Below, piece after piece: positions 288 through 60,621 of a stretch of 60,621 bases of DNA (within the stretch, counting starts at the first letter, position 1; each line of letters begins with the position of its first letter). The notes under the pieces were generated by a model. It made no database searches and was not told the origin of the DNA. It saw nothing but the letters and a program-made list of their open reading frames with translations. Location: positions 1-60,621 of the forward strand of contig JAIXYT010000045.1 in assembly GCA_027490095.1 (NCBI GenBank), given 5' to 3'. The DNA comes from Sphingomonadales bacterium. Lineage in GTDB: Bacteria; Pseudomonadota; Alphaproteobacteria; Sphingomonadales; Sphingomonadaceae. The position numbers were made by a program, and so were the translations under genes.

Positions 288-290
288 CGG

Positions 291-2291: not shown

Positions 2292-2296
2292 GTGCC

Positions 2297-8651: not shown

Positions 8652-8728
8652 TCGCCGGACCCTTCCCCATTGCCGCGGAACACGCCGCCCAGCAGCCGAA
8701 ACCTGTTCTGTTTCGAAAGCGCCACCGG

Positions 8729-11368: not shown

Positions 11369-11379
11369 GGGCCCGCGTC

Positions 11380-12338: not shown

Positions 12339-12387
12339 GGGGGGCTTCTAGGGAAGGTGACGAGTCGCGGCAAGCCTCGCACGCGTC

Positions 12388-12411
12388 GCATGACCCAAGG
12401 AGGGGCCATGC
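12388..12411 (-). promoter_or_regulatory. Hairpin in the nuoA leader
   Basis: On the minus strand the sequence can fold GCATGGCCC against GGGTCATGC with a CTCCTT loop: nine pairs, one of them G-T. It lies about 50 bases before the nuoA start and about 30 after the suhB-like stop. There is no T-run after it, so it is not a classical intrinsic terminator. It could be a leader structure or an mRNA-stabilising stem. Confidence 0.3.
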
Positions 12412-12440
12412 CGCGAATGCATGGCAGCCCCCAGCACCCC

Positions 12441-13238: not shown

Positions 13239-13802
13239 TTAATCCGCGCGCCGCACATAGGCTTGCTCGTACACGTCGACCACGATCCGCGTGCCCGAAC
13301 CGATGTGCGGCGGCACCATCACGCGAACGCCATTCTCTAGCACGGCCGGCTTGTACGACGAGCTTGCCGTCTGCCCCTTCACCACGGCGTCGGCTTCCAC
13401 GATCAGGGCTTCCACCTGCTCGGGCAGCTGCACCGACAGCGGGCGCTCCTCGTACAGTTCCATGGTCACGTCCATCCCGTCGGTCAGGAAGGCGGCTGCG
13501 TCGCCCAGCAGGTCCTTCGGCAGGGTCACCTGATCATAGGTGTCCTTGTCCATGAACACGAGATTGTCGTCCTCGGCATAGAGATACTGGAAGTCCTTGG
13601 TGTCCAGCCGCACCCGCTCCACCACTTCGGCCGAGCGGAAGCGAACGTTGGTCTTGCGCCCGTCGATCAGGTTCTTCATCTCGACCTGCATATAGGCGCC
13701 ACCCTTGCCCGGCTGGGTGTGCTGAGTCTTCACCGCGCGCCAGATACCGCCTTCATACTCGATGATGTTGCCGGGACGAATGTCCACGCCGCTGATCTTC
13801 AT
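13239..13802 (-). CDS. efp: Elongation factor P
   Basis: EF-P rescues ribosomes stalled at polyproline stretches by binding between the P and E sites. The 187-residue protein shows the three-domain layout. Domain I is KOW-like, with [35 protein letters not shown] including the Lys/Gly-rich modified-loop region. Domain II contains [21 protein letters not shown]. The C-terminal OB domain ends in [16 protein letters not shown]. Length and motifs are standard. The 86 bases upstream, to the M3 peptidase stop, likely hold its promoter. Confidence 0.96.
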
Positions 13803-13888
13803 GGGTCACCTTGATTGATGGAAAGAGCAAAAGAGTGCGCGCGCCTTAGCCGGTCGGGGCCCGCTTCTCAAGCGTCTCCGCCCACCCG

Positions 13889-15991
13889 TCAGTTCGCCGG
13901 GAAGCCCCGCTTCTTCAGCAGCGCACCCACATCCGGGTCCCGCCCGCGGAACTTGCGATAGGCCTCCGCCCGGTCGGTCTCGTTGCCGGTCGACAGCAGG
14001 ATGCTGCGGAACCGGTCCGCCACTTGCCTGTCCCACACGCTCCCGGCCTCCTTGAAGGCGGCCCAGGTGTCGGCGTCCATCGTTTCCGACCAGAGGTAGG
14101 AATAATAGCCCGCCGAATAGCCGTCGCCCGAGAAGAGGTGGGCGAACTGCGGCAGCCGGTGCCGCATCACGATCTCCCTCGGCATCCCGATCGCGGCCAG
14201 GGTCTCCCGCTCGAAGGCATCCGGGTCGACAACGCCATCTGCTGTCGTGTGCAGCTTCATGTCGACGATCGCCGACGAAAGATAGCTGACGGTCGCATAG
14301 CCCTGGTTGAAGGTCTGCGCCTTCTCGATCTTCTCGACGAGGGCGGTCGGCATCGGCTTGCCGGTCTCGTAATGCCTGGCGAACCGGTCGAGCACCTCGC
14401 GCGTCAGCAGCCAGTTCTCGTTCACCTGGCTCGGATACTCGATGAAGTCGCGCGGGGTGAAGGCAAGGCCCGGATAGGTCACGTCCTGCAGCAGGAAGTG
14501 GATGGCGTGGCCGAACTCGTGGAACAGCGTGTTCGCGTCGTCATAGCTGATGAGGACGGGTTCGCCCGGGCCGGGCTTGGCGAAATTGTTGTTGTTCGAA
14601 TTCAGCACCGTCTGCCGCGTCGGGAAGCCGCGCTGCAGCCGGTAGGTGGTGTGCCAGGCGCCCGAACGCTTGCCGGTGCGGGCGAAATCGTCGCGGTAGA
14701 AGACGCCGACATGTCTGCCCTCGCGCGTCACCTCAAACACGCGCACGTCCGGGTGGAACACGGGAATGCTGCCGGTGATCTCGGTGAACTTCAGGCCATA
14801 GAGCTGCTCGGCGGCCCAGTAGCTCGCCTGGATCATGTTGTTCAGCTCGAAATAGGGCTTGGTCTCGGCCTCCGACAGGTCGTAGCGCGCCTTCCGGACC
14901 TTCTCGGCGTAATAGAGATAGTCCCAGGGTTCGATCGGATGGCCGGCGATAACGCCCATGTCGGCCACTTCCTCCTTCACCCGCGCCACTGCCGGGCCCC
15001 ACACCCGCAGCATCAGCGCCTCGGCCTTCGCCGGGTCCACGGCCATCGTGTCGGCCATGCGCAGATTGGCGTGGGTCGGATAGCCAAGCAGCTTCGCGCG
15101 CTCGGCTCTCAGCTTCACGATCCGGGCGATGGTGGCGTTGGTGTCGTTGGCGTCGCCATTGTCGCCGCGGTTCACGAAGGCGCGCCAAACGCGCTCCCTC
15201 AGCGCCCTGTCGTCGGCAAACGTCAGCACCGGGTCGACGGCAGAGCGCGTGTTGACGATCGCATAGCCCGTCAGCTTGCGCTCGGCGGCGGCCGCTTTGG
15301 CGGCCGACTTCACGCCGTCCGGCACGCCCTGCATCTCGGCCGCGGTGGCCGGCAGCGCGGTCTCCTCGTCCTTCAGCAGCTTCTGGTTGAACCCGGTGAA
15401 AAGGGTCGCAAGCTCCTGGTTGATGGCCGCCAGCTTCGGCTTGTCGGCAGCCGACAGCTTCGCGCCGCTGCGGACAAAGCCCTCCCAGGTCCGCTCCAGC
15501 AGCCGCAGCTGGGTCGGCGTCAGCTTCGCCGACGCGCGCGACTGGTACACCGCGTCGATCCGCGCGAACAGTTTCGGGTCCAGGTTGATCTCGTCATCCA
15601 GCGCCGCGAACTTCGGGCTCCATTCCCGGTCGAGCGCCTGGTAGGCGGGGCTGTTCATGTTGGCCGTCATCAGGCCGAACATGGCGGACACGCGGTCCAG
15701 CTCTTCCCCGCTCGCCTGCAGCGCCCCGATCACATTGTCGAAGGTGGCGGGCGCCGGATTCCCGGCAATCGCGCGGATCTCCGCCCGCTGCCTGTCGAAG
15801 GCCAGCTCCAGCGCCGGCGGGAACATCTGGGGCTCGATCCGGTCGAAGGGCGGCACCCCGCCGTGCGGCCCCGTCCAGGGCTGCAGCAGGAAGGGCATCC
15901 CGGCGGCAGCGGCCGGCTGGGCGGTCTGGGTCTGGGCCATGGCAGGGGTCATGATGGAAAGAGCGGTGGCGAGAAAGAGGACAGACTTCAA
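13889..15991 (-). CDS. Secreted M3 family peptidase (dipeptidyl carboxypeptidase-like)
   Basis: A zinc metallopeptidase of the M3 family (Dcp/oligopeptidase A type). The first 19 or so residues, MKSVLFLATALSIMTPAMAQ, are a clear signal peptide, so it acts in the periplasm. The zinc site HEFGHAIH lies near residue 490 after the family stretch ISYDDANTLFHEFGH. The C-terminal SGDGYSAGYYSYLWSE segment is a second M3 hallmark. At 700 residues it fits periplasmic Dcp-like members, which release C-terminal dipeptides or cut short peptides. It is probably expressed as a single gene. Confidence 0.9.
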   Translation of the reverse strand: MKSVLFLATALSIMTPAMAQTQTAQPAAAAGMPFLLQPWTGPHGGVPPFDRIEPQMFPPALELAFDRQRAEIRAIAGNPAPATFDNVIGALQASGEELDRVSAMFGLMTANMNSPAYQALDREWSPKFAALDDEINLDPKLFARIDAVYQSRASAKLTPTQLRLLERTWEGFVRSGAKLSAADKPKLAAINQELATLFTGFNQKLLKDEETALPATAAEMQGVPDGVKSAAKAAAAERKLTGYAIVNTRSAVDPVLTFADDRALRERVWRAFVNRGDNGDANDTNATIARIVKLRAERAKLLGYPTHANLRMADTMAVDPAKAEALMLRVWGPAVARVKEEVADMGVIAGHPIEPWDYLYYAEKVRKARYDLSEAETKPYFELNNMIQASYWAAEQLYGLKFTEITGSIPVFHPDVRVFEVTREGRHVGVFYRDDFARTGKRSGAWHTTYRLQRGFPTRQTVLNSNNNNFAKPGPGEPVLISYDDANTLFHEFGHAIHFLLQDVTYPGLAFTPRDFIEYPSQVNENWLLTREVLDRFARHYETGKPMPTALVEKIEKAQTFNQGYATVSYLSSAIVDMKLHTTADGVVDPDAFERETLAAIGMPREIVMRHRLPQFAHLFSGDGYSAGYYSYLWSETMDADTWAAFKEAGSVWDRQVADRFRSILLSTGNETDRAEAYRKFRGRDPDVGALLKKRGFPAN

Positions 15992-16082
15992 GGGAGCACC
16001 TTTGCAACAGTCGAAGCGCGACTGCTAGCCGGATGCAGGCCCCTGCACCATGTCCGTTTCGACGAACCGTGCCGGGCCGCGA

Positions 16083-43091: not shown

Positions 43092-44219
43092 GTGTCCACC
43101 CCCATCCCCGTCATCTCGGCCACCGGTCTGTTCACGCCAGCCGACAGCATCTCCAACGAAGAGCTGGTCGAAAGCTTCAACGCCCATGTCGCGCGCTTCA
43201 ACGCCGAGCACGCCGCGGCCATCGAAGCCGGCACCGTCTTGGCCCTAAGCCCCTCCTCCGTCGAGTTCATCGAGAAGGCGAGCGGCATCAAGGCGCGCTA
43301 CGTCCTCTCCAAGGCCCCAATCCTCGACCCCGCCATCATGGCGCCCCGCATCCCGGAACGGCCCGACACCGAGCTGTCAGTCCTCGCCGAAATCGCCGTC
43401 AAGGCCGCGCGCCAGGCGCTGGCAAGCGCCGGCCGCGACCCGAAAGACGTCGACGCAGTCCTCTGCGCCTGTTCCAACCTCCAGCGCGCCTATCCAGCAA
43501 TCGCGATCGAGGTACAGGACGCGCTCGGAGTCGAGGGCTTCGGCTTCGACATGAACGTCGCCTGCTCGTCGGCCACCTTCGGCATCCAGACCGCGGCAGA
43601 CTTCATTCGCGCCGGCCACGCGAAAAGCGTCCTCGTCGTGAACCCCGAGATCTGCTCGGGCCACCTCAACTGGCAGGATCGCGACAGCCACTTCATCTTC
43701 GGCGACGTCGCAACCGCCATCCTCGTGGAATCGAAGGACATCGCGCCGCCTGCGCATTGGGACATCCTCGGCACCCGCCTGAAAACGCAGTTCTCCAACA
43801 ACATCCGCAACAACTTCGGCTTCCTCAACCGCACCGCGCCCGAGGGCATCGGCCAACCCGACAAGCTGTTCCGCCAGGAAGGCCGCAAGGTCTTCAAGGA
43901 AGTCGTCCCCATGGTCGCCGAGATGATCGTCGCCCACATGGCCGACCTCGGCCTCGAGCCCACGGGCCTTCGCCGCCTCTGGCTCCACCAGGCCAATGCC
44001 AACATGAACCGCCTGATCGCCGAACGCGTGCTCGGCCACGAAGCCAGCCCCGACGAAAGCCCGACCGTCCTCGACACCTACGCCAACACCTCGTCGGCCG
44101 GCTCCATCATCGCCTTCCACCTGAACAGCACCGACCTGGCAGCGGGCGACACCGGCCTCATCTGCTCCTTCGGCGCAGGCTATTCGGCCGGAACAGTCTT
44201 CCTTCGCAAAGTCGCTTGA
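43092..44219 (+). CDS. Beta-ketoacyl-ACP synthase III-like protein
   Basis: A 375-residue thiolase-fold condensing enzyme. The catalytic triad expected for FabH-type enzymes is visible as Cys158 (NVACSSATFG), His299 (WLHQANANMN) and Asn332 (YANTSSAG). It is longer than E. coli FabH (317), with an insert around residues 220-260 (FSNNIRNNFGFLNRTAPEG). It may therefore be one of the FabH relatives that use unusual starters rather than the housekeeping FabH. GTG 43092 follows GGAG by 6 bases and is 11 bases after thyA. The substrate is unknown. Confidence 0.85.
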   Translation: MSTPIPVISATGLFTPADSISNEELVESFNAHVARFNAEHAAAIEAGTVLALSPSSVEFIEKASGIKARYVLSKAPILDPAIMAPRIPERPDTELSVLAEIAVKAARQALASAGRDPKDVDAVLCACSNLQRAYPAIAIEVQDALGVEGFGFDMNVACSSATFGIQTAADFIRAGHAKSVLVVNPEICSGHLNWQDRDSHFIFGDVATAILVESKDIAPPAHWDILGTRLKTQFSNNIRNNFGFLNRTAPEGIGQPDKLFRQEGRKVFKEVVPMVAEMIVAHMADLGLEPTGLRRLWLHQANANMNRLIAERVLGHEASPDESPTVLDTYANTSSAGSIIAFHLNSTDLAAGDTGLICSFGAGYSAGTVFLRKVA

Positions 44220-44290
44220 ACCCCGCGAAACAGGCTGCTAGGGCGCGCGCTCACCAGTTGGCGGGGCCTTCCCGCTAGAGGCATCGGCGT

Positions 44291-44377
44291 GCGGTCGTGG
44301 CGGAACTGGTAGACGCGCAGCGTTGAGGTCGCTGTGGCCGAAAGGCCGTGGAAGTTCGAGTCTTCTCGACCGCACCA
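44291..44377 (+). tRNA. tRNA-Leu (GAG)
   Basis: Acceptor GCGGTCG pairs with CGACCGC. The D arm contains AACTGGTAGACGC. The anticodon arm CAGCG-TTGAGGT-CGCTG has anticodon GAG. A long variable arm (TGGCCGAAAGGCCGT) marks it as a class II tRNA. The T arm contains GTTCGAGTC, the discriminator is A and CCA is encoded. 87 bases. It sits at the edge of the accessory region and tRNA-Leu genes are common integration sites. Confidence 0.96.
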
Positions 44378-44628
44378 TGCAGCCAAAGAGGGAACCGATA
44401 TTCGGTCCTCCGGGCTGCGGCACTGACAGAAGGCCGGCGACGAATGTCCGTGGCTTTGCCGCGCTGCCACCTTGGTGGTGCAGTCAGAGACGGGCGTCTC
44501 GGGCGTTGCTAGCGCCCTCGATCACGGCAAAATCTCCCCTCGAAAGTTCCCCGGCGTCACCTGCCGACGCGATGGCCATCACGCCAGCGCGGAAGGGATG
44601 CCGGCAGTAACCTGTGGTGCGTCAGTGA

Positions 44629-45003
44629 TTTCGGATGGACGACATGCGTCGCCTGACTGATGGGCCCGACAGCGGTGTTTCCGATCTGCTCGACTGCGTG
44701 GGGTTCACTCTCGATCCGCTCTCACGGTCGAAGAGGGTTGAAGGTGCGAAAGCGACCGGGCTTGGGGACACGAAGCCGAAACGCGGGATTTCTTGAGCTA
44801 CATCCTGCAGGCTTGCGAGAAGCAAGGAATCCAGGAGTTGGCGCCAACCAAGATCGCAGATTTTTCCGCAGATACACTACGGCGGGCTGAACGATGCGAA
44901 GCGAGTGCCGGGATCGATCTCCGCCATCGGGAACGCCTTTCCGGACATCCGGAAGCACGTATCTGCTGCACCGTCATCGCCTGGCTCCAGGCCCTTGTCG
45001 TGA
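44629..45003 (+). pseudogene. Remnant of type I restriction enzyme HsdR C-terminus
   Basis: Three short reading frames in order give a recognisable HsdR (EcoEI-type) C-terminal domain broken by frameshifts. The first has MRRLTDGPDSGVSDLLDCV and FTLDPLSRSKRVE. The second has TRDFLSYILQACEKQGIQEL and APTKIADF. The third has YGGLNDAKRVPGSISAIG and NAFPDIRKH. In intact proteins these segments follow one another in one frame and end near the C-terminus. No intact hsdR, hsdM or hsdS is present. The 44378-44628 stretch between tRNA-Leu and this remnant shows no gene that I can support; it holds a short GGACCGAATATCGGTTCC-like imperfect palindrome. Confidence 0.55.
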
Positions 45004-45007
45004 AGCA

Positions 45008-46447
45008 TCAGGCTTGGTGAATGGCCTTGGTGTGGCAGTAGCTCAGGAACCCTTCCGATCCTCCCTCGCTTCCGAACCCGGAGTCCTTGACACCGCCAAA
45101 CGGCGCATCGGCAGTCGAGATGGCGAAGTTGTTTATCCCGACCATGCCGGCCTCGATTGCATCTGCCAGTCGATTTGCCCGGCGGCCGTTTTCGGTGAAG
45201 ACGAATGCGGCAAGACCGTAGGGCAACCTGTTGGCTGCCTCGATTGCATCGTCCTCCTGCGCGAAAGGCTTGATTGCGGCAACCGGCCCGAACGGCTCGT
45301 TCTTCATGATGGCGGCATCGTCCGGTACATCAGCAAGGACGGTCGGACGAAAAAAATACCCTTGCGCTTCGCGCGCACCGCCGGCGAGAACCCGGGCGCC
45401 TCGGGCCTTTGCATCCTCCACCAGCGCGGCGACCGCATCGGGTCGGCGCCGGTTGGCGAGCGGCCCCATCTGGGTGTCAGGCAACAGGCCATTGCCCACC
45501 TTCAGCGCCGCAGTCCTGGCCGCAAAGCCCGCCACGAAGCGCTCGTAGAGGGACTCCTGCACATAGAAACGGGTCGGCGAAACACAGACCTGCCCGGCGT
45601 TCCGGAACTTCTGGGCCACGAGCATGTCGAGTGTGGCTTCCAGATCGCAGTCGTCGAACACCAGCACCGGCGCGTGGCCGCCAAGCTCCATGGTCACGCG
45701 CTTCAGCCCGTCGGCGGCCAGGTGCATCAGGTGGCGGCCCACAGGCACCGAGCCGGTGAAGCTGAGCTTGCGGATCACCGGGGAGGCAAGCAGGTGGCGG
45801 CTCACCATGTCGGGGACACCGTGGACAGACTGGCAGACCCCAGCGGGGAGGCCGGCATCGATCAGGCACTGCATCAGGGCTGCCGTACAGCCCGGCGTCT
45901 CCTCGGGCGGCTTTGCGATAACACTGCAGCCGGCGGCCAGCGCAGGCGCCAGCTTCTTCGCCATCAGATAGACGGGGAAGTTCCAGGGGCTGAACGCAGC
46001 AACAGGCCCGACGGGTTCATTCACGACGATCGAGCGCTGGCCCGTCGGCCGAACCAGCACCCGGCCATAGTTGCGCCGGGCCTCCTCGGCAAAAAAGTCG
46101 AACATCTGCGCGCTGCCGGCAAGCTCGCCGCGGGCTTCGGCCAGCGGCTTGCCCTGCTCCCGCGTCAGGATGGTCGCGATTGCCTCGGCCCGCTCGCGCA
46201 GCAGGGCCGCCGTCCGGCGCAGGATCGCGCCGCGGGTGTCCACATCGGTCGACCGCCAGACCGGAAAGGCCCGGGCGGCCCCCTCCAGCGCCTCGTCCAG
46301 ATCGGCCGCGGTTGCCAGCGGCACCGTTCCGATCGCTTCGCCAGACGAGGGATCGACCACAACATGTGCGTCGCGCCCCTCGCCCATGCGCCAGCTCTGC
46401 CCGATGAACAGGCCAAGGTCCGCTGCACTGTCGCTCATGCCCGCCAT
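45008..46447 (-). CDS. NAD(P)-dependent aldehyde dehydrogenase
   Basis: A 479-residue ALDH-superfamily enzyme. The base Glu254 lies in VTMELGGHAP and the nucleophile Cys288 in NAGQVCVSPTRFYV. The cofactor loop is FTGSVPVGRHLM, and PWNFPVYLMAKKLAPALAAG and NEPFGPVAAIKPF are further signatures. It resembles succinate-, ketoglutarate- and lact-aldehyde dehydrogenases. Anhydrogalactose dehydrogenases also belong to this superfamily, which would fit the sulfatase locus, but the substrate is not shown. ATG 46447 follows AAGG by seven bases. It is the last gene of the minus-strand run and ends 5 bases from the HsdR remnant. Confidence 0.85.
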   Translation of the reverse strand: MAGMSDSAADLGLFIGQSWRMGEGRDAHVVVDPSSGEAIGTVPLATAADLDEALEGAARAFPVWRSTDVDTRGAILRRTAALLRERAEAIATILTREQGKPLAEARGELAGSAQMFDFFAEEARRNYGRVLVRPTGQRSIVVNEPVGPVAAFSPWNFPVYLMAKKLAPALAAGCSVIAKPPEETPGCTAALMQCLIDAGLPAGVCQSVHGVPDMVSRHLLASPVIRKLSFTGSVPVGRHLMHLAADGLKRVTMELGGHAPVLVFDDCDLEATLDMLVAQKFRNAGQVCVSPTRFYVQESLYERFVAGFAARTAALKVGNGLLPDTQMGPLANRRRPDAVAALVEDAKARGARVLAGGAREAQGYFFRPTVLADVPDDAAIMKNEPFGPVAAIKPFAQEDDAIEAANRLPYGLAAFVFTENGRRANRLADAIEAGMVGINNFAISTADAPFGGVKDSGFGSEGGSEGFLSYCHTKAIHQA

Positions 46448-46569
46448 GTCCTTGCCTTGTCCCCCAAGCCCTGCCGATTCAGCTGGACCGGGAAGCGATC
46501 CAGGCGCCCGCAATGTGCACAAGCCAATGCCCTGTTCGCGCGGGAAGTCCGGACAGTGTCTGCCACCGG

Positions 46570-48177
46570 TCAAGGCCGCATATCAGGCGGCAAGATTGCT
46601 TTCTTCGGCAACTGCCGCTTCTCAGGGTCAAAGTTGTACCCTGGCACCGGGGATCTGGTCCTGGCGTCCAGCATCCGGGACATCCGGGCGACGATCGCAG
46701 GATTGCCGGCGGCGACATCGCGCGTTTCCCGCGGGTCGGCGTCCAGGTCGTAGAGTTCGAGGGGCTGGAGCGGGTCGAAGCCGGAAGGCTGGAAACGGAT
46801 GGCTTTCCACTTGCCATCCCGCACGGCCTGGGCGGGCCCTGCCTTCTCGTGAAACTCCCAATAGAGCGGCCCGGTCTGATATTGGGGCTGCCCGACAAGC
46901 GCCGGCAGAAAGGACCGCCCGTCGATCGCATCCGGTGACGAGGCGCCAGCCACATTTGCCAACGTCGGAAGCAGATCCCAGCTGGCGGATATTGTCGGAA
47001 CGGTCGCACCCGGCTTCGTCTTTCCGGCCCAATAGGCAACCAAGGGCACGCGAATTCCGCCTTCATAGAGATCCCGCTTGGCACCCCTCAGCCCGCCGGT
47101 CGCACCGAAAAAGTCGATGTCGGACCCTCCTTCGGCAGTAGGGCCATTGTCGCTGGTGAAAATAATCAGGGTATTGTCGGCCAGCCCTGCACGCGCCAAG
47201 GCAGCGCGAATTCGGCCGACCTCATCATCAAGCCGTGTTACCATCGCAGCCCGTGCCGCCCGAGGAGTTGGATGCGGCGTGTAATTGGTCCGATCCAGTG
47301 CTTTTTCGGGAAACCGCCCAACATAGCGCGACAACAGCGGCTTCGGAATCTGCAGAGCAGCGTGAGGAATAGTGGATGCGTAATACAAGAAGAAAGGCTT
47401 ATTCTTATTCTGCGCTTCTATAAAACTCTCTGCTTTTCGAATGATATGGTCAGGGGCATAATCCTCTCCCTGATATTTTGTGAATATTTCATCGGCCTTT
47501 GATTTTTCATCCGGAGATATGTGCGGAATGAAAAAGCGATTGCGAAGTGGATATCGCACACCATTCTCCCACAAATGCGTCGGATAGTAATTGTGGGCCT
47601 GCTTCTGGTCGAGATAGCCGAAGGCATAATCGAAACCCTGGCGCATGGGATCACCCGGGGTTCCCTGCATTCCAAGGCCCCATTTGCCGATGAGGGCCGT
47701 GCGATAGCCGCGCTGCTGCAGCATGGCAGGAAGCGTCACCCGTCCTTCAGCCAGCGGCATCTGGCCGCGCTCGCCTTCATCGGTGTAGTCGCCAAGCTCC
47801 CAGTTCCCGCGGATGTGCGTGTTTCCGGTGTGCTGCCCCGTCATGAGGACGGCGCGCGACGGTGCACAAACCGTCGAGCCTGCGTAATGCTGGGTAAATC
47901 GAACCCCCTCGCGCGCAAGCTGGTCCAGATTCGGCGTTTCGGCCTTCGTTTGCCCATAGGGTCCGATATCCCCATAGCCCAGATCGTCGGCGAGAATGAT
48001 GACAATGTTGGGTGGCGCCGGCTGGGTGTTGGCTGGTTTGGCCGTCGGCATGTCAGGCGCGCTGTTTGCCGAAGCGGCAGCAAGGGCTATGATGGACCCG
48101 AAGACCGTCCCCGAAAGTCGAGGCCTGGGGGCAGCCGACCGCATTTCATGGATTCCGAACAGCAACGCTGTCTTCAC
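46570..48177 (-). CDS. Secreted S1-family sulfatase (1)
   Basis: A 535-residue formylglycine-dependent sulfatase. A signal-like stretch (SGTVFGSIIALAAASANSA) precedes NIVIILADDLGYGDIGPYG with metal-binding Asp pair. The modified Cys is Cys104 in STVCAPSRAVLMTG, and IGKWGLG and IFTSDNGPTAEGG are further active-site motifs. It looks like the arylsulfatase group with a GNTHIRGN stretch. Start GTG 48177 is preceded by AGGGGAG. About 200 bases near 47340-47560 are clearly AT-richer than their surroundings. Target sulfate ester unknown. Confidence 0.9.
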   Translation of the reverse strand: MKTALLFGIHEMRSAAPRPRLSGTVFGSIIALAAASANSAPDMPTAKPANTQPAPPNIVIILADDLGYGDIGPYGQTKAETPNLDQLAREGVRFTQHYAGSTVCAPSRAVLMTGQHTGNTHIRGNWELGDYTDEGERGQMPLAEGRVTLPAMLQQRGYRTALIGKWGLGMQGTPGDPMRQGFDYAFGYLDQKQAHNYYPTHLWENGVRYPLRNRFFIPHISPDEKSKADEIFTKYQGEDYAPDHIIRKAESFIEAQNKNKPFFLYYASTIPHAALQIPKPLLSRYVGRFPEKALDRTNYTPHPTPRAARAAMVTRLDDEVGRIRAALARAGLADNTLIIFTSDNGPTAEGGSDIDFFGATGGLRGAKRDLYEGGIRVPLVAYWAGKTKPGATVPTISASWDLLPTLANVAGASSPDAIDGRSFLPALVGQPQYQTGPLYWEFHEKAGPAQAVRDGKWKAIRFQPSGFDPLQPLELYDLDADPRETRDVAAGNPAIVARMSRMLDARTRSPVPGYNFDPEKRQLPKKAILPPDMRP

Positions 48178-48242
48178 GGGACTCCCCTTTCTCGGTACAG
48201 CCTGCCAATCAACAAATCCCGGCCGGCAGGTTCTCACGGACA

Positions 48243-50039
48243 TCAGTCGGCCGCATTTCGGGCAACCGGAGAATTCGACGATCCCCGGTCGAAGGCTGAC
48301 GGATATGTGGCGACACCGCTTTCCTGCCACCCGTAGCGGATGGACTTCGCCTCGACCGAACGTCCCACACGAATGGGAATCGGGGCCCCATAAAGGGCCC
48401 ATTCCTGCTCACCAGCCAGCCGCCATCCGATCGACCCCATGTCGGCAGCGTTGATATGCAAGAACCCTGCCTCTTCCCGGAAGGTCGGCTGCGGGGTGCT
48501 GGGTTGGGCGGTCCCGTTCCAAAGACTGTACACCATCGTTCGTTCGTCGGTCCGGGACAGGTCGGGAATTCCGCCCTGCACCCTCGCAAAGGCACCGCGC
48601 GCGCGCGCCAGTTCCCTGCTCGCCGCCGGCGCGTTCGCGAGGTTGGTCTGACAATCCGGATCCTTCAGCAGATCATAAAGCTCTTCGGTCGGTCGCGGCG
48701 CGCTGAGCCACTGGGCAACGCCGTCCGAGAGCGCATTCAGCGCCTCCAGCCGGCGGATTTCCTGCATGGTCGGCAGGTTTTCCCGATAAGCCAGCCGCTG
48801 CAGCGCTGGCAGGTCGGGGCGGTGGTTGACGATATACTGATAGCGTCGGCCGATAAGGGTTCGCTGATGGCTGGCTGTCTCGTCGAACCGGTCGGCGCCG
48901 GCCAGGACATGGGACGGCTCGGCGGCTTTCCGGCGGCCGGCAAAGACCCGGCCCTGGTGCCAGGCAGCGGGGGGCGCGCCGGCCAAGGCAAGGATGGTCG
49001 GCGCCAGATCTACGAAGCTGACCAGGTCCGATCGCGTTCGAGCTTGGGTCCGGCCCGGCATCTTCAGGAACAGGGGCACGCGCAGGCCAGGCGCCTGAAG
49101 GGCACGTTTCACCCGGGGCAGCCCGTCACCATGGTCCGACGTCACCAGAATGATGCTGTCGTCGTACAACCCTTCGGCCTTCAGCCTGGCGATCAGTCGC
49201 CCGAATTCGGCATCGGCAAATGCCACGTTGTCGTACAGGCGCGCGAGGTCCTGACGGACAATCGACGTGTCGGGCAAATAGCTTGGCACCGACACGTCGG
49301 CAGGTTTCGTCAGCCCGCGAAATGCGTTCAGTACAAGCTTGTTTCTCGCCGCCACCGCCCGAACGGCCGGGTCGGGATTGCTGGCCTCGGGCGGCCAAAG
49401 ATAGGATTCGTGCGTGTAGGCGATATTGAACACGGCAAGAAGCGGCCGGCCTCTCGGTCGGTTTTCCCAATCGGCGCGAGGCTCTGATCGCGTCCAGATG
49501 GTAAAGGGGTCGCCCACCTGATAGTCCGTCTTGCCCACGTTCCAGCTGGCATAGCCTTCCCGGCGCAGCAGTTCGGGGAAGAACTTCACCTCCGGCGGTG
49601 GCACCGCAAGATACTCGACCGGCCCGCCGCCCGGCCAGGGCCCTACCCCACGGGTGCGATGGTGCTGTGCGCCGATCGACTGTTGATGCATGCCGGAAAA
49701 CAAGGCTGCGCGGCTTGGCGCGCAGACCGCCGACGTTGTGTAGGCCCGGTCGAACCGCGTGGCATGCCGGGCAAAGGCATCCAGATGCGGCGTGGAGGCC
49801 AGCCTGTCCCCATAGGCTCCCAGCCGGGGGCTGAGATCATCGAACAGGATCAGGATGATGTCAGGCTGCCGAGCATGGGCCGGCAACCCTGCAAGGCCAA
49901 GGTGAATGATGGCCAGCACCGCCAGCAGCGGTCCGGCAATCCTCAGATCTTCCCCGTTCCTGCCAAAAGTCCCGACACACCTCCTGCGAAATGCGTGTTG
50001 AAAGAGCGAACCCCGCCGAAAGCGTGTGACCCTCTTCAC
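48243..50039 (-). CDS. Secreted S1-family sulfatase (2), heparan N-sulfatase-like, extra C-terminal domain
   Basis: A 598-residue sulfatase. An Arg-rich N-terminus of about 33 residues precedes the hydrophobic core AGPLLAVLAIIHLGLAGLPAHA. Then come IILILFDDLSPRLGAYGD, the modified Cys106 in AVCAPSRAALFSG, and NVGKTDY and LVTSDHGDGLPR. The SIGAQHHRTRG stretch resembles the sulfamidase-like S1 group. After the sulfatase fold, residues 500-598 form a small beta-rich tail (MGSIGWRLAGEQEWALYG, AKSIRYGWQESGVATY) like a chitobiase C-terminal domain. GTG 50039 overlaps the previous stop (GTGA). Confidence 0.87.
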   Translation of the reverse strand: MKRVTRFRRGSLFQHAFRRRCVGTFGRNGEDLRIAGPLLAVLAIIHLGLAGLPAHARQPDIILILFDDLSPRLGAYGDRLASTPHLDAFARHATRFDRAYTTSAVCAPSRAALFSGMHQQSIGAQHHRTRGVGPWPGGGPVEYLAVPPPEVKFFPELLRREGYASWNVGKTDYQVGDPFTIWTRSEPRADWENRPRGRPLLAVFNIAYTHESYLWPPEASNPDPAVRAVAARNKLVLNAFRGLTKPADVSVPSYLPDTSIVRQDLARLYDNVAFADAEFGRLIARLKAEGLYDDSIILVTSDHGDGLPRVKRALQAPGLRVPLFLKMPGRTQARTRSDLVSFVDLAPTILALAGAPPAAWHQGRVFAGRRKAAEPSHVLAGADRFDETASHQRTLIGRRYQYIVNHRPDLPALQRLAYRENLPTMQEIRRLEALNALSDGVAQWLSAPRPTEELYDLLKDPDCQTNLANAPAASRELARARGAFARVQGGIPDLSRTDERTMVYSLWNGTAQPSTPQPTFREEAGFLHINAADMGSIGWRLAGEQEWALYGAPIPIRVGRSVEAKSIRYGWQESGVATYPSAFDRGSSNSPVARNAAD

Positions 50040-51625
50040 CGGCTGCCACCGCTGCGGCTGTCGTCGGCTTGCCGCCGCTCGAGAATGTCTTGCAGCATCG
50101 CATCCATCCGCCCGACGTCACCGGGGCGGCCGCCGGCAAGATTGTTGCGCTCGCCGATGTCCATCGACAGATCGAACAGCTGGGGTTGATCGAGCGCTCC
50201 GCTCTCGATCCCCTTGTCCGCCACGAAACCGGCGCTCTTGGGATCGCGCATCGGTGCGATGTACTTCAGCGAACCCTCGCGCAGGGCAAAGCCGGCGACG
50301 GATTCCTTGAACAGCAGCCGGCGGCCGGCAGACTCTTCGCCAAGCCAGGCGGGCAGCTGATTTTCGCTGTCGATGCCGACCGTGTCTGGCAGCCGCGCCC
50401 CCGCCAGCGCCGCAAGCGAGGCGAACAGGTCAACCTGCGAGAGCAGCGCATCGCTCACCCCCGGCTTGATTCGCCCAGGCCACCAGGCGATCAACGGAAC
50501 GCGCGCGCCAGCTTCGAACGCGCTGTACTTGCCACCGCGCAAGGGGCCGGCCGGCCTGTGGTCACCCAGGCGCTCGACCGATCCGTCCGCGTACCCATCA
50601 TCCAGAACCGGGCCATTGTCGCTGCTGAAGATGACAAGCGTGTTTTCGGCCAACCCCAGACGCTTCAGCTCATCCATGATCTTGCCTGTCATCCAGTCCA
50701 TCTGGACGATGGCGTCCCCGCGCGGCCCCATGGATGTGGTGCCCTGGAAACGCACAGCGGGCAGCCGCGGGACGTGCGGGTCGTGAAATGGGAAGAACAA
50801 GAAAAAGGGCTTGTCCCGGTTGGCGCGCATGAAATCGATGGCCTTGCCGGTGAAGACTTCCGGAAACTGCTCTTCCTTCCATTCCGCAGCCCGGCCACCC
50901 TTCATGTAGCCGATGCGCGACACACCGTTGACAATGCTGCCTGAGTGTTGCGGATTGGCCTTGTAGCGCAGCAGCTCCGGGTTGGACTGCCCGGTCGGCC
51001 GGTCACCGATCGGCTGACGATATTCGACGCTGAGCGGGTCCGCCGGATCGAGACCCACGACGCGATGGTCTTCCAGATAGACCGTCGGCACCCGATCAAC
51101 CGTCGCCGGGATCAGAAAAGAATAGTCGAAGCCGATTTCCAGAGGGCCGGGCTTGACCAGTCCGTTCCAGTCGATGCTGCCCTCGCCCAGCCCCAAATGC
51201 CATTTGCCCACGACCGCGGTCGCATAGCCCTGGTCTTTCAGGACATCGGCAATGGTAACCTTGTCCGGCTGGATCAGCGCCGGCGCATCTCCGGGGAGAA
51301 TCCGGGCGTCGCTGCGAAAGGGGTATTCACCCGTCAGCAGCGAATAGCGCGAAGGTGTGCAGGTCGCCGCCGTTGCATGGGCATCGGTGAAGCGCACGCC
51401 CTCGCGCGCCAGCCGGTCCACATTGGGCGTCGGCAGGCCCCTGGCACCATAGGAACCCAGGTCACCATAGCCCAGATCATCGGCATAGAAGATGACGATG
51501 TTGGGGGGGCGCGTCGCCCGGGTTGCCGGCACATCGATGGCAGACGCCGGCTCAGCCGCAACCGGGTCCGGCAGCGTCAGGCACAACAGCACAGTAAGCG
51601 CATACCATGGGTTGGTGGCGCTCAT
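50036..51625 (-). CDS. Secreted S1-family sulfatase (3)
   Basis: A 529-residue sulfatase with a signal peptide (ALTVLLCLTLPDPVAA). It has NIVIFYADDLGYGDLGSYG, the modified Cys89 in TCTPSRYSLLTG, VVGKWHLGLGEG, FFPFHDPHVPR and VIFSSDNGPVLDDG. The CTPSR version of the motif and the LLTGEYPFR stretch differ from its neighbours, so it is likely from another S1 subfamily with a different target. The ATG overlaps the stop of sulfatase 4 (ATGA). Confidence 0.9.
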   Translation of the reverse strand: MSATNPWYALTVLLCLTLPDPVAAEPASAIDVPATRATRPPNIVIFYADDLGYGDLGSYGARGLPTPNVDRLAREGVRFTDAHATAATCTPSRYSLLTGEYPFRSDARILPGDAPALIQPDKVTIADVLKDQGYATAVVGKWHLGLGEGSIDWNGLVKPGPLEIGFDYSFLIPATVDRVPTVYLEDHRVVGLDPADPLSVEYRQPIGDRPTGQSNPELLRYKANPQHSGSIVNGVSRIGYMKGGRAAEWKEEQFPEVFTGKAIDFMRANRDKPFFLFFPFHDPHVPRLPAVRFQGTTSMGPRGDAIVQMDWMTGKIMDELKRLGLAENTLVIFSSDNGPVLDDGYADGSVERLGDHRPAGPLRGGKYSAFEAGARVPLIAWWPGRIKPGVSDALLSQVDLFASLAALAGARLPDTVGIDSENQLPAWLGEESAGRRLLFKESVAGFALREGSLKYIAPMRDPKSAGFVADKGIESGALDQPQLFDLSMDIGERNNLAGGRPGDVGRMDAMLQDILERRQADDSRSGGSR

Positions 51626-53130
51626 GGAAGGCCTGCTCCGGTCCCGGGCTGGCCGGCTTTCGGAGCCCCTTCAGGGCCGGTCGATCCTCCGGCCGGTGGC
51701 GGCCAGGTGCCCAGCGGCGGGAAGGCCGGCTCTCGGGCCATGTTCGCGTTCCATGCGTCGAACACGGTCTTGTACCGCGCCACTTCGTCGGCGTTGGCCG
51801 GCGCAATGTCCGTGGTCTCGCCAGGATCGGCCCGCAGGTCGAACAGCGCCGCCACCTTGCCGTCGCTCACATATTTGCGGTCTCCGGCCACGATGGCGCT
51901 CGCGCCCCGGTCGAAATCACGGAAAAACAGCATCGGGTGCGGCGGTCCGCTCTTTTCCCCACGCAGATAGGGCACAAGGTCAACGCCATCGAGGGGTCGG
52001 TCCGGGCGCAGCGCGATGCCGAGCTGCCCGGCCAGCGTGCCGACGATGTCCATGCTGCTGACCGGCTGATCATGATCCCGGCCACCCGGGATCCTGGCTG
52101 GCCAGCGTATTGCAAACGGCACCCGGATGCCGCCTTCATACAGATCCCGCTTGCCTCCCCGCAGCGGTCGGTTGCTGGCAACCGGCTGATCGCCCGCCTT
52201 GCCGGGCGTGACGCCGCCATTGTCGGTCAGAAAGATGACGATCGTATCCCGGGCCCGCCCGGTGCGGTCGATCTCGGCCAGCACCTTCCCGACTCCATCG
52301 TCCATGGCGCTGATCATCGCAGCATAGGTGCGCCGCTTTTCATCTCGGATGTGCGAAAAGCGCGCGAGATAGGGGTCGGATGCCTGCAACGGCGTATGCG
52401 GCGCGTTGTAGGCAAGGTACAGAAAATAGGGCTCGGGCTGATCGGCCCGGCGCCGGATGAAATCGACGGCTCGGTCGCTGAATTCGTCGGTCAGATACTT
52501 CTGAAAATGAACCGACGTCTCATTCTGCGTCAGCTTGGCACGATACCAGTCATAGAGCTTGCGGGTCTCATAGATGTTCTCGAATTGCGTTTCCTCGGGT
52601 CGATAGCTGTGTCCACCCTCCAGCATCCCATAGAATTCATCGAAGCCGCGTTTGCGCGGGCGCAGCGACGGATGCGTCCCCATGTGCCATTTGCCGACCA
52701 GCATCGAATGATAGCCTGCGCGCTGCAGCATTTCGGGCAGGATTTCCTCGGTCAGCGGCATGCCACCCCGCGGATCGGTCGGGTCCGCATTGGGATTGCG
52801 GTCGAACCCGAAGCGGGATTGGTATCTGCCGGTCAGCAGGCCGGCCCGGCTTGGCCCACAGACCGGGAAGGTCACATAGCCACGGGTGAAGCGCACGCCT
52901 TCCCTGGCGATCCGATCGATGTTCGGGGTGGGGATATCCGTGCTGCCGTTGAGACCGACATCGGCATAGCCCTGGTCATCCGACACGATGAGCACGATGT
53001 CCGGCTTGCGGGCAGGCACTGTTTCCGCCACCGACGGCGCTGCGACGGCGAAGCCCAGGATCGGCAACACCCCACGCATCACTGACGCCATCTGGGCAAC
53101 CAGCCATTGCCATCCGCGCTCGCGCGCCAT
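51622..53130 (-). CDS. Secreted S1-family sulfatase (4), CGPSR type
   Basis: A 502-residue sulfatase with an N-terminal signal (GVLPILGFAVAAPSVAE). It has IVLIVSDDQGYADVGLNG, the modified Cys91 in FPVCGPSRAGLLTGRYQ, VGKWHMG, YNAPHTPLQ and IFLTDNGGVTPG. The CGPSR-AGLLTGRYQ form is common in the S1_19 subfamily, which includes carrageenan sulfatases; this subfamily call is tentative. A Pro/Gly-rich tail ends the protein. AGGAG lies before ATG 53130, overlapping the galactosidase stop, so it follows it after 10 bases. Confidence 0.9.
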   Translation of the reverse strand: MARERGWQWLVAQMASVMRGVLPILGFAVAAPSVAETVPARKPDIVLIVSDDQGYADVGLNGSTDIPTPNIDRIAREGVRFTRGYVTFPVCGPSRAGLLTGRYQSRFGFDRNPNADPTDPRGGMPLTEEILPEMLQRAGYHSMLVGKWHMGTHPSLRPRKRGFDEFYGMLEGGHSYRPEETQFENIYETRKLYDWYRAKLTQNETSVHFQKYLTDEFSDRAVDFIRRRADQPEPYFLYLAYNAPHTPLQASDPYLARFSHIRDEKRRTYAAMISAMDDGVGKVLAEIDRTGRARDTIVIFLTDNGGVTPGKAGDQPVASNRPLRGGKRDLYEGGIRVPFAIRWPARIPGGRDHDQPVSSMDIVGTLAGQLGIALRPDRPLDGVDLVPYLRGEKSGPPHPMLFFRDFDRGASAIVAGDRKYVSDGKVAALFDLRADPGETTDIAPANADEVARYKTVFDAWNANMAREPAFPPLGTWPPPAGGSTGPEGAPKAGQPGTGAGLP

Positions 53131-53140
53131 CAGCCTTCTC

Positions 53141-58160
<5,020 letters not shown>

Positions 58161-58281
58161 GATCCGCTTTTGCTTTCCTGAAGTCTTCCCAGGACGCCCA
58201 ACCTACATCGACTGCGCACAGTGCAGGCGTCGAAGCAGACAGTCGGCCTTGCCGGGCGCAGGTTCCCGCAGCCGCATCGCA

Positions 58282-60621
58282 TCAGAAGCGGACACGCACG
58301 CCGGCCGAGAACCTACGATCGGCTTCGCCATATTGCCAAGGCACGCCGTTCTTGAAGTGCGCACGCCTGACGATCGGCTGCCTGGTCAGATCGACCCCCT
58401 GCAGGGCAAGCGTGATGTTGGGCGTCACATCGTAGGAGAGCGAAGCATTGAGCTGCCCACGCGCCGACAACCAGGAAGGGCCGCCCTGCACTTCCTGCTG
58501 GGCCTCCGACTCAAGGAATGTATCACGCCACGTATAACGCACCCGGGCGCTGATCCCGTATTTTTCATAGAAGACGGTAATGTTGTAGGACGTCTCCGAC
58601 AGTCCGCGAATGGGCAGCGGGAATTCCTCGTTCAGGCCCACTTCCCCGAATTCCGTCGGCAACGTGAATGTAAAGTCCCGGTCTCCTTTCAGGAACGTAA
58701 TGTTCGCAATAAGGCCGAATCCGCCGAGGAAATTGTCAAAGTAACCGTCGAGAGAGTGCTGAAACGCAAGCTCGACACCCCTCAGCGTCCCTGAGTTCGC
58801 GTTTTCAGGACGAATAACGTTTGCACAAGCGCCAATTTGACCTGTGGACAGCACAACAAAAGGATTCCAGATGCCTTGGACGCAGGCACTCTCTGTCGTC
58901 ACTTGCGATCCATCCGGGTTTCTGCTCGCCGGCGTGACAATAGAACTGATGATATCACTTCTCTTTTTGTAGAATGCGCCCGCCGAGAGCACGCTGGATG
59001 GCGCGAAATACCATTCGATGCTGGCATCGATGCTGTCGACATTTTCAGGGACCAGTTCCGGATTCCCGGCATTCAGCGTGTTTCCAAAAATAGGGAAATT
59101 CAGCGTAGGAGAAAGCTGATCGAATGCAGGCCGGCTGATATTGCGCGCATAGCCAAGGCGCAGCAACAGGTCGTCGACAGGCTCCCAGGTCAGGCTGGCA
59201 CTTGGAAGCAGCTTGAAATAGCTCTGCGTTTCGACGACGTCGCCGGTCACAACGCCGTTTCGGCTGGTAACACCCGTTGCAGTCTGATCCGTCAGAACCG
59301 CCCGGACACCGAACGTCGCACGAAACGGGCGGTTGGCCAGATCGGCATCGATCCGCCCCATTATGTATCCGGCGAAGGTGGTTTCCTCGACGTCGAAGCC
59401 TGCCGCCTGGTTGAAATCCGGATTGACCGTCAGGCGATTGGCAGGATTTTCAATGGCAGCATTCAGCCGCTCGATGGTTCCCGCACGGTCACGGATCGCA
59501 AGGAACGGGTCGAGTGTTAGATAGGGGCTGATGTATTCGCCGTCCCTGCCAAACAGCGTCCGCGGCGTGGGCACAAGGATATCGGAAATCTCGGTGCCCG
59601 ATATGCCGGGAAAATTCGGGGTGGCGAGCGAAAACTGGTCTCGAGAGGACGTTCGCCTGTTGATCCGGACGCCGGTCTCGATCGCGGACAGCGCGCCCCA
59701 ATTTGTGTTGAATTTGAAGTCCAGTCGTCCGGCAACCTCATCATTGCTGAACGCATTGCCGTTGTCACGAACCACAAAGACCGCATATCGCGCCGGATCC
59801 AGTATGCCCGCCGATATGTCGGGCCCAACCGGGTAGAACTTGATCCGGCCACTACGCGCATCATAGAAATGGTCGACCGGCTGGCGACCGGCGGCCGTAT
59901 TGAACTGCGCCCCGGCATTGGCCCGCTGAAACTGGGAAACCATGCTCAGATTGTCGCTGTCGGTTGCCGACTTCGTGATCGACAGATCGGCGGACACCTC
60001 GACAATGTCGGATTGATACTCCACCCCGAAGGCGCCAAGCCATGTCGTCGTCAGCCGGTTGTTCGACTGGTTGTTCATGCGAAGCTGGTAGCCATCCTGT
60101 TGGCCCGCGATGAGCCAGCGGAGTTCGCGATCACTGGGAAGACCCTCCAGAACCACAAATTCCGATTGGGCAATCCGATCCAGTTCGCCGCGACCGTTCA
60201 CGATGTCGCCGAAAACACTCTGCCCGGCATTCTCGAACGAGAAGTCGGAATAGAAGCCTTCCAGGCGCAGCTTCCACCGATCGTTGGGCGCCCACTCGAA
60301 ATTGCCGTTGAAGGCCTTGCGCTCACGCGCCTGCGAAATGACTGTCGAACTGGAAAAGCCCGGCCGGAAATAGGGGTCGGGCACGCCGTCTCCCGTCAGG
60401 TCGATGGTGTTCCGCACGATCGGGGTAACCCTGATCGTCCCCCCCTGGACATCCTGCCTCTGATAGCTCGCGGAGAGGACGAAGCCTATTTCGCCGATCG
60501 GCGTATCGAACCGATCGCCCAGCGTGACCGCGCCCGACGGCTGCCAGCTGTCGGCATTTTCCGCATACTCCATGTCGAATTGGGCCGCCCGCAACGGGGT
60601 GCGCAGCTCCAGTCCCCGATA
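58282..60621 (-). CDS. TonB-dependent receptor, C-terminal part (saccharide uptake candidate)
   Basis: Partial: the first residues visible (YRGLELRTPL) are already in the barrel and the plug lies beyond the right edge. About 779 residues are present, ending in the aromatic SAGVRVRF typical of outer-membrane barrels. Strand patterns include RATFGVRAVLTDQTATG, LLPSASLTWEPVDDLLLRLGYARNISRP, NPELVPENVDSIDASIEWYF and SYNITVFYEKYGISARVRYTWRD, the usual barrel pattern of sphingomonad and Caulobacter saccharide receptors. It is upstream of and co-directional with the sulfatase genes, so import of their oligosaccharide products is likely. Confidence 0.85.
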   Translation of the reverse strand, partial: YRGLELRTPLRAAQFDMEYAENADSWQPSGAVTLGDRFDTPIGEIGFVLSASYQRQDVQGGTIRVTPIVRNTIDLTGDGVPDPYFRPGFSSSTVISQARERKAFNGNFEWAPNDRWKLRLEGFYSDFSFENAGQSVFGDIVNGRGELDRIAQSEFVVLEGLPSDRELRWLIAGQQDGYQLRMNNQSNNRLTTTWLGAFGVEYQSDIVEVSADLSITKSATDSDNLSMVSQFQRANAGAQFNTAAGRQPVDHFYDARSGRIKFYPVGPDISAGILDPARYAVFVVRDNGNAFSNDEVAGRLDFKFNTNWGALSAIETGVRINRRTSSRDQFSLATPNFPGISGTEISDILVPTPRTLFGRDGEYISPYLTLDPFLAIRDRAGTIERLNAAIENPANRLTVNPDFNQAAGFDVEETTFAGYIMGRIDADLANRPFRATFGVRAVLTDQTATGVTSRNGVVTGDVVETQSYFKLLPSASLTWEPVDDLLLRLGYARNISRPAFDQLSPTLNFPIFGNTLNAGNPELVPENVDSIDASIEWYFAPSSVLSAGAFYKKRSDIISSIVTPASRNPDGSQVTTESACVQGIWNPFVVLSTGQIGACANVIRPENANSGTLRGVELAFQHSLDGYFDNFLGGFGLIANITFLKGDRDFTFTLPTEFGEVGLNEEFPLPIRGLSETSYNITVFYEKYGISARVRYTWRDTFLESEAQQEVQGGPSWLSARGQLNASLSYDVTPNITLALQGVDLTRQPIVRRAHFKNGVPWQYGEADRRFSAGVRVRF

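Follow-up and report, generated by a model that had tools for sequence, protein, structure and literature searches.

The window analyzed here is a stretch of 60,621 nucleotides (positions 1-60,621) that makes up the entire contig C4 of a Sphingomonadales genome (contig JAIXYT010000045.1 of assembly GCA_027490095.1, a 3.15-Mb draft in 51 contigs that is 96.6% complete). At 45008-60621, it contains eight genes in a row, all on the minus strand, which probably belong to an acquired and largely complete locus for sulfated galactose oligosaccharides, situated to the right of a tRNA-Leu(GAG) gene and split over C4 and a second contig, C35. The kinds of genes that an earlier note, made from the sequence alone, had listed here were borne out by open reading frame (ORF) reading and by Pfam and NCBIfam searches, with full Pfam support for all eight. 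Every Pfam match quoted for these genes exceeds its curated cut-off, and chance is no concern where the domain matches are full-length. The features of the window are the following:

44291-44377, plus strand: tRNA-Leu(GAG), called by ARAGORN; left boundary of a variable region and possible integration site
45008-46447, minus strand: aldehyde dehydrogenase of the succinate-/alpha-ketoglutarate-semialdehyde dehydrogenase type (Pfam Aldedh, 4.5e-163)
46570-48243, minus strand: S1_20-like sulfatase, predicted to be secreted, predicted galactose 3-O-sulfatase (PDB 7ana/7an1; CAPSR signature)
48243-50039, minus strand: S1_8-like sulfatase, predicted to be secreted, predicted galactose 2-O-sulfatase (PDB S1_8A/B/C; tree)
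50036-51625, minus strand: S1_15 sulfatase, predicted to be secreted, predicted galactose 6-O-sulfatase (PDB 9bas; tree)
51622-53130, minus strand: S1_19-like sulfatase, predicted to be secreted, predicted galactose 4-O-sulfatase (PDB 6bia/6b0k/9hh3/6prm; tree)
53141-56401, minus strand: LacZ-type beta-galactosidase of glycoside hydrolase family 2 (GH2), predicted to be secreted (Pfam GH2 TIM barrel, 8.4e-91, with Bgal_small_N)
56430-58160, minus strand: IlvD/Edd sugar-acid dehydratase, predicted D-galactonate dehydratase (Pfam ILVD_EDD_N, 3.7e-105)
58282-60621, minus strand: 3' part of a TonB-dependent receptor (Pfam barrel, 7.5e-37; TIGR01782, 2.5e-112, from model position 147)

Starts overlap preceding stops at three of the seven junctions (ATGA at 51622-51625, GTGA at 50036-50039, and TGATG at 48241-48245), in keeping with the several overlaps reported earlier. 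A by-eye reading of the translations found hydrophobic N-termini in the four sulfatases and the GH2 enzyme.

All four sulfatase ORFs contain the Pfam Sulfatase domain (E 5.7e-64 to 5.2e-37) and the Cys-type C-x-P-x-R signature, in the forms CAPSR, CAPSR, CTPSR, and CGPSR. Cys-type S1 sulfatases need a formylglycine-generating enzyme (FGE) for maturation, and an FGE gene is present in the genome on contig C41 (E 3.7e-80). By kinship, the four fall under S1_20, S1_8, S1_15, and S1_19, and are thus different from one another, as had been proposed. The S1_15 enzyme has as its top PDB match 9bas, the S1_15A enzyme of the lambda-carrageenan pathway (2.8e-188), and is 55-56% identical to two S1_15 proteins of Pseudoalteromonas carrageenovora (tree support 0.96/0.996). 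Our tree held 63 sequences, 51 of them picked by a motif filter from fetched loci, with PDB sequences left out. For the S1_8-like enzyme, the top PDB matches are S1_8A, S1_8B, and S1_8C of the lambda-carrageenan pathway, and it groups with P. carrageenovora S1_8 proteins in a clade with support 1.0. The S1_19-like enzyme matches best to 6bia, 6b0k, 9hh3, and 6prm, sulfatases of iota- and kappa-carrageenan, and is 39% identical to two sulfatases from the P. carrageenovora kappa/iota locus. It falls in a clade with P. carrageenovora RS20155 (support 0.954), as sister to a protein of Christiangramia crocea (support 0.985; 48-49% identity) that is encoded in a stretch with one S1_15 and two GH2 genes.

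Sulfatases of the lambda pathway act on 2-sulfates (S1_8) and 6-sulfates (S1_15), and S1_19 and S1_7 enzymes on 4-sulfates, according to the excerpt of PMC12549532, while the excerpt of PMC10154612 gives 3-sulfates as the target of S1_20 sulfatases. Read in this way, the set would potentially supply one sulfatase for each free hydroxyl of galactose (2-O, 3-O, 4-O, and 6-O). The Trp in which the C-termini of S1_15A and S1_15B differ gave no clear indication of whether the S1_15 enzyme uses monosaccharides or oligosaccharides. Generic scavenging of aryl, choline, or steroid sulfates, without a glycan link, could account for the NCBIfam choline-sulfatase and arylsulfatase (PRK13759) models scoring on all four sulfatases; those scores, however, are about 100-149 bits, far under the curated cut-offs of 433 and 481, and the sulfatase genes sit in one cluster with those for a TonB receptor, a galactosidase, and a galactose pathway. 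We regard such scavenging as extremely unlikely. The earlier note had named steroid- or choline-type subfamilies as the outcome that would speak against a glycan; three of the sulfatases are instead nearest to carrageenan enzymes, since the kin of S1_15 and S1_8 are lambda-carrageenan sulfatases and those of S1_19 iota/kappa-carrageenan sulfatases, and the fourth is nearest to 7ana and 7an1.

The matches of this fourth, S1_20-like sulfatase to 7ana and 7an1 score 383 and 306 bits, respectively. We take 7ana to be the Bacteroides thetaiotaomicron S1_20 enzyme BT1622, which prefers 3-O-sulfated N-acetylgalactosamine and also acts on 3-O-sulfated galactose, and 7an1 to be the S1_20 enzyme BT1636 of the same species, which acts on 3-O-sulfated galactose. 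Three pocket residues of 7an1, which we presume to be the substrate-reading His, Glu, and Arg, are identical in the window enzyme, and the 7ana chain is without the aligned Glu and Arg. Because the score is higher with 7ana but the three residues agree with 7an1, the window enzyme appears nearer to BT1622 overall and nearer to BT1636 at the pocket. In BT1636, the His reads the axial O4 of galactose and the Glu and Arg act at O2, as described in the excerpt of PMC10154612.

These resemblances bear on a second alternative, in which the GH2 enzyme and the sulfatases would act on terminal 3- and 6-sulfated sugars of animal-type glycans, such as mucin O-glycans or sulfated N-acetyllactosamine. As far as the excerpted sources go, B. 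thetaiotaomicron has S1_20 and S1_15 enzymes that act on the sulfates of mucin, and BT1624 (S1_15) and BT1636 share one mucin-associated polysaccharide utilization locus (PUL). With BT1636, BT1622, and BT1624, the locus has in common an S1_20 enzyme with the O4-recognizing His and O2-recognizing Glu and Arg, and an S1_15 enzyme. In contrast, the locus genes read include one TonB receptor and no SusD, so that a SusC/SusD pair was not found among them, and no mucin-type glycosidase (hexosaminidase, sialidase, or fucosidase) was recognized there; the kin of S1_19 and S1_8, moreover, belong to algal galactan pathways. A mucin-type substrate is, in our judgment, very unlikely.

The right edge of the window is the end of a contig, not the end of the locus. 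The TonB receptor of the earlier note is indeed present, but its gene is incomplete and cut by the end of C4; the 5' part is probably C35:1-528, on the minus strand. A plug-domain search of the genome gave 48 matches, one of them at the start of C35 (C35:16-327, minus strand), and of all 48 matches, this one alone sits in an open frame of fewer than 600 residues (195). When the right end of C4 is abutted to the left end of C35, a single open frame of 955 residues results; there is no sequence overlap between the two ends. The joined receptor is 36% identical over 1005 columns to a relative in stretch L054 (the best of 35 long proteins), without a gap at the join. C35 is also colinear, in the correct direction, with DNA to the right of the tRNA-Leu in two other genomes, from C35:24322 in G101 and from C35:19885 in G498, where 38 kb lie between the tRNA and the match; no such match occurs before the end of the stretch in G163 (18 kb) and G499 (about 26 kb). 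The unbroken receptor frame and the independent colinearity in G101 and G498 together make it most likely, by strong inference, that C4 and C35 are adjacent and that the locus continues on C35 with the following genes:

C35:1-528, minus strand: receptor N-terminus with plug domain, frame kept on joining
C35:858-1580: GntR/FCD regulator, from the reading of the C35 genes
C35:1754-2521: short-chain dehydrogenase/reductase (SDR); best model D-xylose 1-dehydrogenase, below cut-off
C35:2594 to about 3225, minus strand: 2-keto-3-deoxy-6-phosphogalactonate (KDPGal) aldolase (NF006600, 249 bits against a cut-off of 207)
C35, ending at 4918: SSS (sodium/sugar) symporter, 57% identical to the symporter of the P. 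carrageenovora lambda locus
C35:4915-5892: SMP-30 lactonase (SGL, 2.8e-74)
C35:5892-6926: PfkB kinase (PfkB, 2.8e-22)

The De Ley-Doudoroff pathway consists of a sugar dehydrogenase, a lactonase, a galactonate dehydratase, a 2-keto-3-deoxygalactonate (KDGal) kinase, and a KDPGal aldolase. All five step types are present, with the SDR, SMP-30, PfkB, and aldolase genes on C35 and the IlvD gene in the window, and they are predicted to form a De Ley-Doudoroff route for galactose. Together with the kinship of the sulfatases, these genes support the earlier reading of a sulfated, galactose-containing substrate. The GntR/FCD regulator lies where the earlier note had suggested looking for regulators, to the right of the window if C4 and C35 are adjacent. 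The best models for the PfkB kinase are a fusion of 2-keto-3-deoxy-6-phosphogluconate aldolase and sugar kinase and a kinase of 2-keto-3-deoxygluconate or KDGal, all below cut-off, and the solved relatives of the SDR include sulfoquinovose 1-dehydrogenase.

The context of related operons also supports galactose as the sugar. Among ten listed plasmid records, the two inspected (Sulfitobacter S190 and Ruegeria SCSIO 43209) carry galactonate-type operons that comprise genes for a beta-galactosidase or GH2 enzyme, an SDR, a 2-dehydro-3-deoxygalactonokinase, a KDPGal aldolase, and an SMP-30 protein. Identities to these operons are 64-65% for the window IlvD and, for the C35 proteins, 44-48% (SDR), 50-53% (KDPGal aldolase), and 39% (SMP-30). 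Unlike the locus described here, they have ABC transporters, a 2-dehydro-3-deoxygalactonokinase unlike PfkB, and no sulfatase in the stretches read. The Sulfitobacter S190 plasmid (NZ_CP081123.1; L229, L230) has two copies of a long region with the operon, one of them with broken genes, among these a 2-dehydro-3-deoxygalactonokinase gene split in two; the second copy may be an artifact of assembly. Within the same family as our genome, G245 encodes within 20 kb a TonB receptor and a KDGal-kinase-like protein along with an S1_15 sulfatase (51%), an aldolase (53%), and a symporter that is 72% identical to that of C35, and in G400 and G457, genes for S1_15, a TonB receptor, SMP-30, and IlvD (44%) occur together.

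The dehydratase and the aldehyde dehydrogenase also bring in a sulfated arabinogalactan locus, in which both would serve a non-phosphorylating L-arabinose route to alpha-ketoglutarate as well. Solved relatives of the window IlvD include the L-arabinonate dehydratase of Rhizobium, which accepts D-fuconate, D-galactonate, and L-arabinonate according to the excerpt of PMC11316719, so that sequence alone leaves the IlvD substrate unfixed; the best solved relatives of the aldehyde dehydrogenase include succinate semialdehyde and alpha-ketoglutaric semialdehyde dehydrogenases. Neither a 2-keto-3-deoxy-L-arabinonate dehydratase nor an arabinosidase was recognized among the genes read, however, and the KDPGal aldolase and the kinase indicate a hexonate. 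An arabinogalactan substrate thus seems quite improbable. We also considered and rejected the aldehyde dehydrogenase as a 3,6-anhydrogalactose dehydrogenase (DauA), in view of its best solved relatives and its identity of 33% to the dauA-type enzyme of P. carrageenovora.

The GH2 enzyme is the sole PF00703 match in the genome. It scores 969.7 bits with NCBIfam Bga2A, under the cut-off of 999, and carries the motifs GNE and EYAHAMGN, which we take to be those of the LacZ catalytic glutamates.

Taken together as a sulfated galactose oligosaccharide locus, these genes suggest the following route. The TonB receptor would import sulfated galacto-oligosaccharides to the periplasm, where four exo-acting sulfatases, matured by the FGE encoded elsewhere, would remove sulfate from galactose at positions 2 (S1_8), 3 (S1_20), 4 (S1_19), and 6 (S1_15). 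The secreted GH2 enzyme could then release the bared terminal beta-galactose, and the sodium/sugar symporter would move it into the cytoplasm. There, the SDR, SMP-30 lactonase, IlvD, PfkB-type kinase, and KDPGal aldolase would convert galactose to pyruvate and glyceraldehyde-3-phosphate, presumably under control of the GntR/FCD regulator.

Enzymes that cut polymers were sought in the whole genome. For GH16 (PF00722), there were no matches, and the control was positive in 6 of 14 known genomes; GH82 lay outside this search. No match was found to a P. carrageenovora protein that we take to be GH150, in a search of this draft genome without a positive control, nor to P. carrageenovora GH110, again without a positive control, a query that does match its Pseudocolwellia relative, at 34% identity. 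The earlier observation that no endo-hydrolase is visible therefore held for GH16 and, with that limit on the search, for GH150. Since no polymer-cutting enzyme turned up, other microbes are probably the source of the fragments on which the organism feeds.

The closest known parts are those of the Pseudoalteromonas lambda-carrageenan PUL (P. distincta U2A; P. carrageenovora PULs 8 and 9), which has the same S1_8, S1_15, GH2, TonB receptor, and SSS symporter and the same order of action, exo-desulfation followed by a galactosidase. P. carrageenovora PUL 9, with one S1_8, two S1_15, a galactokinase, a TonB receptor, and an SSS symporter (excerpt of PMC6262041), is a close functional parallel. 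The lambda PUL sits on a plasmid, whereas our locus lies beside a tRNA in a variable region; it adds S1_20 and S1_19, its GH2 is LacZ-type, no GH150 or GH110 was found, and galactose would be handled by De Ley-Doudoroff enzymes in place of a galactokinase. The kappa/iota-carrageenan locus (P. carrageenovora PUL 7) shares the S1_19 kin and oxidative sugar catabolism genes beside sulfatases; here, in contrast, no dauABCD-like set was seen near the locus in a comparison with one reference set, against which the one MR/MLE protein among the nearby genes read shows 23% identity to the dauB-type protein.

A carrageenan PUL proper, of the lambda or kappa/iota type and degrading the polymer itself, would explain the kinship of S1_15, S1_8, and S1_19 and of the symporter. 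In addition, Pseudocolwellia agarivorans (L077) pairs an S1_20 enzyme, 38% identical to the window's, with a lambda-type set whose members are 74% and 62% (S1_8), 71% (GH110), and 76% (S1_15) identical to those of P. carrageenovora; S1_20 is not represented among the five sulfatases reported from P. distincta U2A. Against such a PUL, the searches gave no relative of GH150, GH110, or GH16, the aldehyde dehydrogenase is distant from the dauA type, and the GH2 is of another type than that of the lambda PUL. With no GH16 found and low identities to the dauA- and dauB-type proteins, a complete route for kappa/iota is unlikely, and a complete lambda route would lack GH150 and GH110, by searches that had no positive control. 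Overall, we consider a carrageenan PUL proper unlikely. Agar and porphyran, which the earlier note named beside carrageenan, have no specific support. The sulfated galactose oligosaccharide locus is best described as an alphaproteobacterial variant of marine sulfated-galactan loci, directed at sulfated beta-galactosides and with galactose oxidation encoded in the locus.

Several points weigh against this reading. Identities to the lambda-carrageenan enzymes are just 28-29% for S1_8 and about 25% for the GH2, so the locus is not a copied lambda-carrageenan system. Subfamilies are not single-substrate, since S1_8 includes xylose-2-sulfate and glucosamine-N-sulfate enzymes, and S1_20 and S1_15 also occur in mucin degradation, per the excerpted sources; the S1_20 enzyme itself scores higher with the structure we take to be that of the N-acetylgalactosamine-preferring enzyme. 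The SDR and kinase score under the cut-offs of their models, which leaves their predicted substrates less firm, and the De Ley-Doudoroff route has no place for the aldehyde dehydrogenase. The endo-acting families searched were GH16 and GH150 only, the GH110 and GH150 searches had no positive control, and the draft state of the genome limits the negatives. As for the locus as an island, its low GC content is not special to it (window 1-16000 is also at 0.63-0.66), which makes composition weak support. No integrase was recognized among the genes read. A search for repeats of the 3' end of the tRNA found none in window 44000-60621 and none of at least 12 exact bases in C35:1-40000 (the best 25-mer, in C35:1-25000, has 9 mismatches).

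The position of the locus is variable. In all five other genomes of the genus, synteny on the left side stops at the 3' end of tRNA-Leu(GAG), at 44377 or 44378 in four and at 44415 in one. No DNA of the cluster was found in what was read to the right of the tRNA, a stretch of about 58 kb for both G101 and G498, of 26 kb for G499, of 18 kb for G163, and of 3 kb for G500, and the best S1_19 matches in G101 and G163 are at 42% and 41%. Relative to G498, the variable region would then measure about 36 kb, with the cluster occupying its first 23 kb. The GC content is 0.635 for the cluster and 0.637 for C35:1-7000, compared with 0.68 for window 1-44290 and 0.69 for C35:19885-60000. Given that the site is variable and that the distribution, described below, is patchy, we infer that the locus was acquired by transfer. 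In G500 (contig C105, L180), a short ORF at 2182-2493, close to the same tRNA-Leu, reads by eye as the N-terminus of a P4-type integrase, which is consistent with recurrent integration at this tRNA. Window 44800-45000 reads by eye as a decayed C-terminal piece of HsdR (type I restriction) and may be the remnant of an island; the part of it scanned with Pfam, 44894-45022, gave no match.

Among the 396 genomes of the order, own genome included, relatives of S1_8 were found in 22 and LacZ-type GH2 enzymes in 24, with a best identity outside our own genome of 48% in each case, and relatives of S1_15 in 17, with a best of 60%; the three lists share only our own genome; these searches score just the first few candidates per genome, and the counts hold at the thresholds used. 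S1_19-type matches were found in 46 of the 199 genomes of the family, the best-scoring other at 42% and none above 43%. No syntenic copy of the cluster was found in the stretches of relatives examined, which were chosen by sulfatase matches and covered 14 of 21 other genomes for S1_8 (L054-L073), 5 of 45 for S1_19 (L157-L164), and, for S1_15, 15 of 16 other genomes (L200-L214; the sixteenth, G347, is within the S1_8 set) and 7 of at least 63 loci found by exact peptide patterns of one protein (L074-L080). GH2 relatives enter as a list, with their neighborhoods left out. In tblastn searches with 14 proteins (8 from the window and 6 from C35), a single stretch matched four kinds at most, even with loose matches counted, and three adjoining stretches of G188 together matched five. 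A plasmid megablast with the whole cluster gave five records, each with a coverage of 4% or less. For the guaA region, the 12 plasmid records listed include matches to Azospirillum, Sphingomonas, Shinella, Methylobacterium, and Qipengyuania, which indicates an alphaproteobacterium and, with the size of the family sample, suggests Sphingomonadaceae in the GTDB sense.

Within the family, the nearest parallels are in G188 and G245. The G188 cluster (L158 2475-11975, L157 16200-20000) holds two GH2 (41-44%), GH95, S1_20 (53%), and S1_19 (39-40%), together with PhoD-like genes and TonB receptors; it differs from the window locus in its GH95 and PhoD-like genes and in giving no S1_8 or S1_15 match at the order-search thresholds, and possibly serves a galactan with L-galactose or fucose. 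The 20 kb of G245 are without an S1_8, S1_19, S1_20, or GH2 match. There (L213 9266-19390), S1_15 lies within about 10 kb of the other genes, perhaps as a 6-sulfogalactose locus.

In the open-licence literature, with most subscription papers outside its coverage, no such locus was found described for Sphingomonadales, Sphingomonadaceae, Erythrobacter, alphaproteobacteria, or the combined subfamilies. To our knowledge, most of the sulfated-galactan loci characterized so far belong to Bacteroidota and Pseudoalteromonas, and they combine sulfatases with enzymes that cut the polymer. If our reading holds, the locus would offer a clear case of a cross-feeder on sulfated galactose in an alphaproteobacterium, in a variable region beside a tRNA, and a small set of enzymes with which sulfation patterns could be mapped. 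More tentatively, a position-complete sulfatase set, a single exo-beta-galactosidase, and private galactose oxidation might together make a general scavenger of sulfated beta-galactosides of any pattern, fed by the leftovers of polymer degraders; we hold this wider idea to be possible, though short of an even chance.

A few further observations concern single genes. S1_15 proteins at 57-60% identity occur in ten genomes of another genus (g112, family f8; L200-L209), where a conserved SDR gene adjoins in 7 of 10; their neighbors are unlike those in the window, and this is apparently a separate S1_15 context. The ARAGORN call of a tRNA-Ala at 60489-60579 of the window, on the minus strand, falls in the TonB receptor coding frame and is probably false. 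Four other sulfatases are encoded in the genome, on contigs C50 and C37, where the surrounding ORFs were judged by eye.

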